This document shows, one piece after another, positions 51,932 through 54,456 of a stretch of 60,620 bases of DNA; the first letter of the stretch is position 1; every line of letters starts with the position of its first letter. The translations under genes and the position numbers were made by a program. Origin of the DNA: Planctomycetia bacterium (GTDB lineage Bacteria; Planctomycetota; Planctomycetia; Gemmatales; Gemmataceae); contig SXID01000259.1 of assembly GCA_005772955.1 (NCBI GenBank), positions 1-60,620 of the forward strand, given 5' to 3'. The notes under the pieces are model-generated. The model did not search any database. It was not told the origin of the DNA and worked only from the letters and a program-made list of their open reading frames with translations.

Positions 51932-54001
51932 TCACTTCTTCTTCGGCGCGCCTTCAACGACGACAGTGATCGGCACGGCTGCGTAGGTCGGCACCGGGCG
52001 CAAGATCGCGTTGTTCCCGCCCTTCGGCACCGGCGCGGCGCTCTGACCGCGAAGCACCAGCGTGTGCGTCCCTGGCGGCAGGTTCGCGGGGATGTCCACG
52101 CTCACCTTCAGTTCGGTGCTGCCCGCCGCCGCGGTCCCGACCGGCGGGAACGGCTGGTTCCCCATCGGTCGCGGGCCGAAGTTCGGTGTCGCCGCGATGA
52201 CCGCGATCCCGTCCTTGAACGTGTCCTTTCGCGTCACCTTCAGCGTCACGTCGATCTTGCCACCAGCCTTTGCGGCGAACTCCGTTTCGGTGGGGACGAG
52301 CGTGAATGGCGCTTCCCCGCGAACCGCGAAGGCAAGGCCGTCGCCGCGGTCCATACGCGTGATCATCGGCGTGTTCGGGATCTGGTTCTGTTGCACGCCG
52401 ATCGCGGGCCACGTCACGGTGAATGGTCGCGCGGTGTGTTTCAGATCGCCCGATGTTGCGTTGATCTTCACGAAACCCTCGAAGTCTTCTGCGTTCTTGT
52501 CGCAGGTCAGCACGAGCGTGCCGCGTGTCTGGCCAGCCCCGATGACTTGCTTCGGGCACGTCACGCCTTTCGGCAGTTTGTCGGCGCTCAGTTCGATGGC
52601 ATCGTTGAAGCCGTCGAAGCGGAACACGAACACGGTGAAGACCGCGCTGGTGCCCTTTGCTAGCGTGCCCGCGTCCGGGAGGTACTGGATCAGTGGCATG
52701 ACCGCGAGCCGGAAGTCGGGCTTCTCCTTCGCGATCCGCAACACGAACTGATCGCGCACGCCGAACTGCACACCGGCTTCGCGTGTGGACACCATCACCT
52801 TGTAGTTGCCGTCTGTGGGCACCGTGAACCGGTAGCGGCCGGGATCGTCGGACTTCGTGTAGAACTGGTTCGGGCTGAGCGTATCCGGGCCGTCGTCCTG
52901 TTCGGTAATCACCTTGCCCTTGTCGTCGGTGAGGATGAAGTACGCGTCTACCGGCGAGCCGATGCGTTCCGCGAACACTTCGAGCATCCACACGTCACCC
53001 TTCGTCGCGGTGAAGTTGTACCAGTGGCGTTCGTTCTTCTTGGCGACGCGCCCCGCGACATCGCACGGAACCTTCACCTCCTGGGCCGTGTCCGCGGTGC
53101 CGTTCTTCGTGTTGTCGAGGATGAGGGGATTCGTACCGGCGAGTACCGGGTGGCCGCCAAGCGAGGTCGGTTCGTGTGCGTCGATCATCGCGGCCGTTGG
53201 AGCGGTGGACCAGTTCGACACCAGTGCGGCTTTTGGCGCGGCGACCGGCGGGAAGACCGCAGGAACCCAGGTCGTTGTCGTGACCGTGAGCCGGTAGAAG
53301 TGGTCCACGCCGCCCGTGGTGTACGCGAACTGCGACAGTCGCACCAAGTAATCGCCATCGGTGGGCGCTTTGAAATCGAGGACCGCGTCGCCGCCGCGAT
53401 AGGCGCGGTTCGATGCGAGCGCCTTGCCGTCTGGCCCGCTCACCATCAGGTCGGCTTGCATCTTGCTGTCGATGCTCGACGTGAGGCAGTACACCACGAC
53501 GTTCTGACCGGCCTTCGCCTTGAACACGACGAAGTCCACATCCGTCGGCGCGCTGATGACGCCATTCACGGTGGTTTCGAGGTCGATCTTCTGCGCCTGC
53601 GGCACGTCGTTGTTCGGTTCGGCTTCGTTCACGTCCGTTATGCCACTCACGACGAACGCTCGCGGGTTGCTCAGCCCGCTCTTGCTCACGACGCGCACGT
53701 CGTGGGTGCCGGTCGCGCCTTTCGGGGCGGTCACTTTGAACTTAATAGTGGTAGCTGGCACGCCCTTCGGCGTCTTCGGATCGACCGTCGCGGCGCCGAC
53801 GCGCTCGGCAGCGAACCCCTTCGCGCTGAACAGCAATTTCTCGTCGCCGTCAAAGCCAGCGCCCGCGAACGTGACGTCCACCGTGTCGCCAGCTTTCGCA
53901 CCGGGCGGGAACACCGTGAGCAACTGCGGACCGGGCTGCGCGCTCGCGTACCCGCCAACGAGTGACACGACGAACGCGGCAACAATGCGACGGAGGAACA
54001 T
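51932..54001 (-). CDS. Pre-peptidase (PPC) domain surface protein
   Basis: A 689-aa exported protein. A signal peptide (about 1-23, YASA) is followed by a beta-domain on GAKAGDTVDVTFAGAGFDG, then two PPC-like beta sandwiches containing the motif EAEPNNDVPQAQKID, and then DGDYLVRLSQFAY, and further Ig-like parts. PPC domains are usually attached to secreted hydrolases, but no enzyme domain is seen. It is a common partner gene of the DUF1549/DUF1501 systems. The ATG at 54001 begins at the signal peptide. Confidence 0.85.
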   Translation of the reverse strand: MFLRRIVAAFVVSLVGGYASAQPGPQLLTVFPPGAKAGDTVDVTFAGAGFDGDEKLLFSAKGFAAERVGAATVDPKTPKGVPATTIKFKVTAPKGATGTHDVRVVSKSGLSNPRAFVVSGITDVNEAEPNNDVPQAQKIDLETTVNGVISAPTDVDFVVFKAKAGQNVVVYCLTSSIDSKMQADLMVSGPDGKALASNRAYRGGDAVLDFKAPTDGDYLVRLSQFAYTTGGVDHFYRLTVTTTTWVPAVFPPVAAPKAALVSNWSTAPTAAMIDAHEPTSLGGHPVLAGTNPLILDNTKNGTADTAQEVKVPCDVAGRVAKKNERHWYNFTATKGDVWMLEVFAERIGSPVDAYFILTDDKGKVITEQDDGPDTLSPNQFYTKSDDPGRYRFTVPTDGNYKVMVSTREAGVQFGVRDQFVLRIAKEKPDFRLAVMPLIQYLPDAGTLAKGTSAVFTVFVFRFDGFNDAIELSADKLPKGVTCPKQVIGAGQTRGTLVLTCDKNAEDFEGFVKINATSGDLKHTARPFTVTWPAIGVQQNQIPNTPMITRMDRGDGLAFAVRGEAPFTLVPTETEFAAKAGGKIDVTLKVTRKDTFKDGIAVIAATPNFGPRPMGNQPFPPVGTAAAGSTELKVSVDIPANLPPGTHTLVLRGQSAAPVPKGGNNAILRPVPTYAAVPITVVVEGAPKKK

Positions 54002-54107: not shown

Positions 54108-54113
54108 GGAGGG
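54108..54113 (+). promoter_or_regulatory. Strong ribosome binding site of the putative selenoprotein
   Basis: GGAGGG lies 7 bases before the ATG at 54121. It supports real translation of the frame, which contains two TGA codons. Confidence 0.75.
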
Positions 54114-54120
54114 CAATTCC

Positions 54121-54456
54121 ATGCGTGCGAGTGTGCTGACCGTCTTCGTGGTGGCGCTGGCAGGGTGTGGGCAGGTGCCTCGCGGGTCGGACGAACCAAT
54201 GGCAACCGACGGGCCGAATCAGGTGGTGCTGAAGGTACCCGGCATGACGTGAGCCAGTTGACCGCAATCCGTGAGGAACAACCTCGCGACTCTACCGTGG
54301 GTAGAGCCCGACACGATCAAGCCGAACGGCAAAACGCGCCAGGTCAAGTTCACCGTAACCGACCGCGCGAAGTTCGACCTGCAAGAAGTGAAGCAGGCGC
54401 TGACGTCGCGCTACTCGGACGGGGTGAAGGTACTCGCCGGCCCGACAGAGAAGTAG
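54121..54456 (+). CDS. Putative selenoprotein: HMA-domain lipoprotein with U-x-x-U site
   Basis: A single frame of 112 codons runs from ATG to TAG with two in-frame TGA codons, 44 and 47. The N-terminus is a lipoprotein signal with lipobox LAGC (C16). From residue 36 the sequence is VLKVPGMT-[TGA]-AS-[TGA]-PQSVRNNLATLP, then VKFTVTDRAKFDLQEVKQAL. This is a heavy-metal-associated domain (MerP/CopZ-like) in which the two metal-binding cysteines of GMTCxxC are exactly the TGA codons. If selenocysteine is inserted, the product is a 111-aa periplasmic lipoprotein with a U44-x-x-U47 site. Two hairpins follow the TGAs (54270-54288 and 54290-54306). It sits alone between a divergent PPC-protein gene and a convergent DUF1501 gene. 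Alternative: a pseudogene. Confidence 0.72.
54270..54288 (+). promoter_or_regulatory. Candidate SECIS hairpin 1
   Basis: A 7-bp stem (54270-54276 with 54282-54288, one G-U pair) with the 5-base loop AACAA. The loop begins 24 bases after the first TGA. A bacterial SECIS needs a G among the first two loop bases; this holds only if the closing G-C pair opens. Confidence 0.4.
54290..54306 (+). promoter_or_regulatory. Candidate SECIS hairpin 2
   Basis: A perfect 7-bp stem (54290-54296 with 54300-54306) and the 3-base loop GTG, with G first. The loop begins 35 bases after the second TGA, within the range quoted for bacterial SECIS elements. No experimental support. Confidence 0.45.

Follow-up and report, generated by a model that had tools for sequence, protein, structure and literature searches.

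The gene at positions 54121..54456 (forward strand) of the window, as we call the whole stretch of 60,620 nucleotides analysed here, almost certainly encodes a selenoprotein; no experiment has been performed, and insertion of selenocysteine (Sec) is inferred. We consider it very likely that the product is a lipid-anchored, secreted metal-binding protein of the MerP/CopZ kind in which Sec replaces both ligand cysteines, made by the ordinary Sec machinery with one downstream hairpin, H2, as SECIS and a second, H1, as accessory stem. The Sec insertion, the metal and the roles of the two hairpins in this assignment are inferred, while the reading frame, the domain, the family-wide exchange of Cys and Sec, the machinery genes, the selection and the hairpins themselves are observed.

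A lipoprotein gene with two in-frame TGA codons

The gene runs from an ATG at 54121 to a TAG at 54454-54456 and encodes 111 amino acids, an assignment supported by its relatives. As claimed in the original prediction and read directly from the DNA, the frame is broken internally by exactly two stops, both TGA, at codons 44 (54250..54252) and 47 (54259..54261). A GGAGG ribosome binding site lies 8 bases before the ATG (54108..54112), and the translated N-terminus is a short hydrophobic stretch that ends in LAGC (residues 13-16; signal peptide 54121..54168), called from the lipobox consensus with Cys16 as its last residue; both elements had been predicted. By a loose pattern, a lipobox-like motif also occurs in 36 of the 47 TGA-bearing genes of the family described below; in two of these 47, the contig ends before the motif is reached.

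Residues 36-94 (54226..54402) form a heavy-metal-associated (HMA) domain. With the TGAs read as Cys, the protein matches Pfam PF00403 with an E-value of 8.1e-9 and a score of 36.2 bits, above the cut-off of 24.8, which agrees with the predicted placement of the TGAs on both cysteines of GMTCxxC: Sec44 takes the first and Sec47 the second of these metal-ligand positions, giving GMT-Sec-Ala-Ser-Sec. An AlphaFold model built from a 30-row alignment has a mean pLDDT of 81.4, the blocks for residues 31-100 reaching 86-94. When the model was compared with the PDB, MerP (1osd) ranked first (E = 3.4e-5) as the sole match below 0.001; copper and zinc HMA domains came next.

The sel genes, on which the original prediction depended, were looked for in the genome of the window, and selA, selB, selC and selD are all present. 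The tRNA-Sec scores 71 bits and has the anticodon UCA, and SelB (380.7 bits), SelA (551 bits) and SelD (385.9 bits) each exceed their curated cut-offs, selA, selB and selD each lying on a separate contig. The same genome carries a gene for a formate dehydrogenase alpha subunit (L212, G000:C137:6608-8467; 668.4 bits, just above the cut-off of 666.25). This gene has a single TGA, flanked as SCNRT-U-HAPS, and, 18 nt past it, a hairpin with a GGUCU loop. Such a loop resembles that of Escherichia coli fdhF. Given selABCD and a further selenoprotein gene of the classical kind, the organism very probably makes use of Sec. In the genomes G003, G004, G009 and G018, further molybdopterin-type proteins are matched by the formate dehydrogenase model with E-values from 1.9e-48 to 2.0e-52 and contain one in-frame TGA each, which makes them candidate selenoproteins.

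Among the 66 genomes of the taxonomic family with completeness of 90% or more and contamination of 5% or less, tRNA-Sec was found in all 27 with a TGA form of the gene versus 30 of the 39 without one (Fisher p = 0.008). Five of the 14 TGA-bearing genomes below 90% completeness yielded no tRNA-Sec match at 1e-10, likely because they are incomplete, though this is not shown; one of the five, G009, has a 50.6-bit match that may be another tRNA. Genome G052 has two tRNA-Sec matches over the cut-off, at 68.9 and 61.4 bits.

Exchange of Sec and Cys in a Gemmataceae family

Relatives of the window gene were detected in 11 of the 19 genomes of its genus at an E-value of 0.001. A family profile applied to 95 Gemmataceae genomes matched 49 of them at 1e-6, in 59 places altogether, comprising 20 two-TGA, 27 one-TGA and 12 cysteine forms; the TGA-bearing genes, 47 in total, are spread over 41 of the 95 genomes, and relatives with TGA or with TGC/TGT at the two positions, as envisaged in the original prediction, thus exist. 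All 67 in-frame TGAs of the 47 genes fall on the two CxxC/CxxxC codons, no TAA or TAG lies inside any of the 59 matches, and at both sites the only codons that swap with TGA in these 59 genes are Cys codons. Random stops elsewhere in the gene, named in the original prediction as a sign against it, were not seen: none of the 59 matches has stops besides TGA at the two codons.

The two-TGA forms are UxxU and also UxxxU, such as UPVGU. In all 27 one-TGA genes the TGA is at the first position (UxxC, UxxxC), and because no CxxU form was found among the 59 extracted genes, it is the second Sec that is optional in the family. On a protein tree of 80 columns, with many forks unresolved, Sec number changed at least 14 times. 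As extracted, 21 of the 47 TGA-bearing genes also terminate at TGA (e.g. L107, L112 and L125), so that UGA seems to mean both Sec and stop in one mRNA. One genome, G027, has five HMA relatives (L124, L136, L157, L158 and L163), four with TGA (UASC, UARGU, UPGSC and UPVGU) and one in the Cys form, and gives two tRNA-Sec matches.

Judged from substitution patterns alone, purifying selection acts on the frame downstream of the TGAs. In 36 pairs drawn from 9 close relatives out of the 59 genes, median pN/pS was 0.44 below the second codon outside the hairpins, and 0.22 upstream of and including the CxxC; mean pS was 0.66 below the second codon outside the hairpins versus 0.33 in the 16 hairpin codons.

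These data bear on two explanations that dispense with Sec. A short gene with two stops might be a pseudogene, or the product of sequencing error, with the TGAs as dead stops and no translation downstream; the identical two codons recur in 47 genes of 41 genomes, however, selection continues downstream of them and the matches have no other stops, so that we assign this explanation a very low probability and reject pseudogene and assembly error. Reading of UGA as another residue (Cys or Trp), through near-cognate read-through or a code change, is compatible with the frame, which stays open whatever residue is inserted. Yet TGA alternates only with Cys codons, 21 genes terminate at TGA by extraction, the genome holds selABCD, and hairpins stand much where a SECIS would. 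We consider this reading very improbable, and a code change was rejected on these grounds.

Across the phylum, 392 genomes were sampled, with only 14 candidates per genome scored, and 24 of them gave a match at 1e-9. Under the same restriction, TGA forms besides that of the window were seen in three phylum genomes, with one TGA each in the reported match; the DNA of the motif was displayed for two of the three. In these data the two-Sec form is centred in Gemmataceae, absence elsewhere in the phylum being weak evidence with only 14 candidates per genome scored. All 72 named loci examined matched the HMA profile, with TGA at the cysteines only in Gemmata L034; the patterns that fetched these loci were written with Cys and are biased against TGA forms. 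L198, from a different family of the phylum (G190), has GMTU in its first HMA domain and a second GMTU that starts what looks like a repeat of the domain.

A two-Sec HMA-type protein is an already known, predicted kind. In its accessible portion, a 2026 review (PMC13188914) tabulates 119 selenoprotein families or subfamilies, including in Table 1 NF041115, a 'metal-binding protein (putative mercuric reductase)' with UxxU and two Sec, and also counts a mercuric transport protein and an E1-E2 ATPase with UxxC among selenoproteins. The part available of a 2022 review (PMC9312934) contains the same kinds of selenoprotein, a table in the consulted part of PMC2398784 has 'Mercuric transport protein MerP' among GOS selenoproteins, and a 2016 planctomycete genome paper (PMC4807772, likewise partly available) reports Sec insertion genes in G. 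obscuriglobus.

Like the window protein, NCBIfam NF041115 (UxxU_metal_bind) is a small HMA-type domain with Sec at both metal-site cysteines. The window protein reaches only 30.3 bits against its cut-off of 95, however, and covers only positions 4-46 of the 74 in the profile; it also differs in its lipoprotein signal and longer C-terminal half, and its family includes UxxxU and UxxC. Filing it under NF041115 was rejected on this score. Of the 30 aligned family members, 27 match NF041115 at 0.001 or better, which at the level of profile scores indicates kinship of the domain, not membership; in the genome of the window nothing matched NF041115 over the cut-off. MerP (TIGR02052) shares with the window protein the fold and the character of a secreted HMA protein. 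The usual MerP uses Cys in place of the Sec pair, the score is 30.7 bits against a cut-off of 92.55, on which filing as MerP was rejected, and the mer operon setting is not met, the adjacent genes encoding PPC-domain, DUF1501 and DUF1800 proteins. The GMTCxxC domain is also common to CopZ/Atx1 chaperones and P-type ATPases, where it is cytosolic or fused to pumps, unlike the free lipoprotein described here. As far as searched, the novelty lies in the Gemmataceae lipoprotein family, its UxxxU spacing and the two-stem region treated below: neither a Gemmataceae HMA selenoprotein nor paired hairpins for two UGAs were found in the literature searched, mostly titles and listings, with subscription papers and supplements outside the scope.

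Two hairpins below the UGA codons

Two stems of 7 bp follow the TGAs. H1 (54270..54288, forward strand; loop AACAA) lies 24 nt after TGA 1 and 15 nt after TGA 2, and H2 (54290..54306, forward strand; CUCUACC-GUG-GGUAGAG, loop GUG) lies 44 nt and 35 nt after them, respectively. In UxxU and UxxxU genes alike, the H2 loop stands at a constant 34-35 nt past the second Cys/Sec codon, its distance from the first UGA being 43-47 nt; the centre of H1 drifts by about 2 nt from one relative to another. Compared with dinucleotide shuffles, the 80-nt stretch that follows TGA 1 shows only mild stability (z = -1.69; 10 of 200 shuffles were as stable), and the case for the hairpins therefore rests on relatives and on codon-level controls.

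For the protein-preserving control, each gene was compared with 1000 recodings of the same protein using the codon usage of the same locus, at p < 0.05. In the window, H1 passed with p = 0.002 and H2 with p = 0.001. Among the 20 two-UGA genes, H1 passed in 17, H2 in 19, both in 16 and neither in none; the 27 one-UGA genes gave H1 in 13, H2 in 13, both in 4 and neither in 5, and the 12 Cys genes gave H1 in none, H2 in one, both in none and neither in 11. H2 thus passes in 32 of the 47 TGA genes. Both hairpins together distinguish two-UGA from one-UGA genes (Fisher p = 1.4e-5), and within H2-bearing genes H1 is present in 16 of 19 two-UGA versus 4 of 13 one-UGA genes (Fisher p = 0.0035). Both tests ignore kinship, and the search windows for H1 and H2 were chosen after viewing the sequences. 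A tree-paired test, which with six supported pairs was short of power, gave on average 3.1 pairs for and 0.3 against a link between hairpin and second UGA (median p = 0.25). We think it reasonably likely that the second stem, H1, is truly linked to the second UGA.

Compensatory changes were found in both stems. At least 6 of the 7 H2 pairs were present in 34 of the 47 TGA genes; G038 was set aside, its H2 having failed the recoding control, and the other 33 formed alignment A3. In A3, 97.4% of H2 cells are paired, versus 33-52% in slid controls, a figure inflated partly by construction because the rows were picked for H2 pairing. Thirteen H2 cells are altered on both sides (CG to GC in 3, CG to UA in 6, UA to CG in 2 and AU to GC in 2), and none of 500 shuffles reached as many; one of the five covariation measures, the number of further pair types, was no higher than in shuffles. 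For H1, alignment A4 (23 rows selected for one register, duplicates omitted) showed 10 cells altered on both sides, again reached by none of 500 shuffles, but on two of the five measures the alignment was no better than shuffles. A search of the 19 genus genomes with an RNA model built on H2 and its surroundings (E = 0.01; only 150 first-look candidates scored per genome) found one place each in 10 of them and no other gene; all 10 places are TGA-bearing HMA genes that belong to the model's own alignment.

The published bacterial SECIS model, as given in the accessible portion of PMC13188914, requires a hairpin 16-37 nt past the UGA whose loop has G as its first or second base. H2 resembles it as a small stem whose C-GUG-G loop fits N1 G[G/U] N N2 and differs from it in standing 43-47 nt from UGA 1, with H1 between. 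For UGA 2, H2 offers both the 35 nt distance and the G[G/U] loop, whereas for UGA 1 H1 has the distance without the loop and H2 the loop without the distance. UGA 1 of the window is therefore without a fully fitting hairpin, H2 lying outside 16-37 nt and the H1 loop AACAA having no G in its first two places.

The loops of the relatives differ between the stems. H2 has a G[G/U] loop (C-GUG-G or C-GUG-C) in all 32 genes in which it passes the control. Of the 16 two-UGA genes in which both hairpins pass, 8 have an H1 loop of the G[G/U] type and 13 carry a G within the first two places of that loop. One-UGA genes fall partly into two groups: nine have H2 at 43-47 nt and no significant H1, and nine others, of the types UMSC, UMGC and UFSC (three of them near-identical in sequence), pass with H1 alone, whose loop is GGUCC or AGUCU, that is G[G/U], in 9 of 9. 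Altogether, a significant stem bearing a G[G/U] loop is present in 41 of the 47 TGA genes, this being H2 or, where H2 is missing, H1. Most two-UGA genes possess a further stem, with a loop that is less well conserved.

We propose that ordinary SelA/SelB/SelC/SelD would place both Sec residues in the window protein, with H2, through its C-GUG-G loop, as the inferred SelB-binding SECIS and H1 as a second stem that may aid decoding of the second UGA. H1 is read as a decoding aid because it tends to track the second UGA while its loop is not conserved. In the simplest form, H1 would stall the ribosome at the second UGA while SelB reloads on H2. The base of H1 lies 8 nt below UGA 2 in the window; from the geometry of the ribosome, melting of H1 would begin once UGA 2 reaches the A site, and the ribosome would slow there. 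Such pausing is plausible but doubtful. A further-reaching reading, which we give somewhat less than even odds, is a compact two-stem element: H2 as the distal SECIS would act jointly with H1, a proximal stem dedicated to the task, to insert two Sec residues 3-4 codons apart, H1 being gained and lost with the second UGA.

Two other arrangements must be weighed against it. Our first reading gave H1 and H2 one SECIS role each, H1 (24 nt) for UGA 1 and H2 (35 nt) for UGA 2, with two SelB complexes loaded together. Both distances are within the published 16-37 nt, both hairpins occur in 16 of the 20 two-UGA genes, and the nine UMSC/UMGC/UFSC genes with H1 alone all have the G[G/U] loop. That reading is weakened by the loop of the window H1, which lacks the G required by the published model, and by the nine one-UGA genes that retain H2 and not H1 though their sole UGA is the first; we now see it as possible and somewhat unlikely. 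Alternatively, H2 could suffice as a single SECIS, with H1 incidental or serving mRNA folding, in line with the non-significant tree-paired association and the movement of the H1 centre among relatives. That H1 passes the recoding control in 17 of 20 two-UGA genes and has some compensatory changes in one register counts against such a minor role, which we judge unlikely. The SECIS H2 with an accessory H1 is preferred over one SECIS per UGA because nine one-UGA genes have H2 only; neither alternative is proven.

If the two-stem element is real, Sec number would be tuned by one codon and one stem, and the arrangement would fall outside the published bacterial SECIS model.

A putative selenium metal site and its meaning

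A soft metal ion, or a thiophile like it, is the most likely binding target of the Sec pair; there are no binding data, and the metal is undetermined. Inferentially, the pair may bind a soft metal such as Hg(II), Cu(I) or Ag(I) tighter than Cys, and binding would occur outside the cytoplasmic membrane. Its function as a metal site we hold to be probable, metal binding being itself inferred. The same protein could instead use the Sec pair as a diselenide redox centre, a possible role given that, in the accessible portion of PMC13188914, most uncharacterised selenoproteins are thought to be redox proteins; the fold, however, is that of HMA/MerP and not of thioredoxin, and we consider a redox centre unlikely. 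The original prediction of a selenoprotein with a U-x-x-U metal or redox site is accordingly supported by the sel genes and the relatives, Sec insertion and metal binding remaining inferences.

The neighbourhood does not identify the metal. A divergent gene for a secreted PPC-domain protein (51935-54001, reverse strand) adjoins the Sec gene, and DUF1501 and DUF1800 genes follow it. The PPC-domain neighbour recurs in G009, G013, G018 and G092, in 5 of the 14 loci compared with the window included, and the divergent pairing possibly reflects a shared promoter region. Comparison of the 14 loci revealed no functional partner, only the PPC gene recurring, and no mer or copper genes were found among the three neighbours scanned (PPC, DUF1501 and DUF1800); the metal is a guess because these three are not mer or copper genes.

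Annotation that takes TGA as a stop would truncate such proteins at the first TGA. In its accessible portion, the published SECIS model (PMC13188914) does not cover the decoding of two UGAs 3-4 codons apart. The family offers a natural series in related bacteria, with two, one or no Sec, as UxxU, UxxxU, UxxC or CxxC, and with or without the second stem, and two-UGA decoding is therefore directly testable. For Gemmataceae, the findings point to a selenium-based metal-binding lipoprotein, its binding being inferred.
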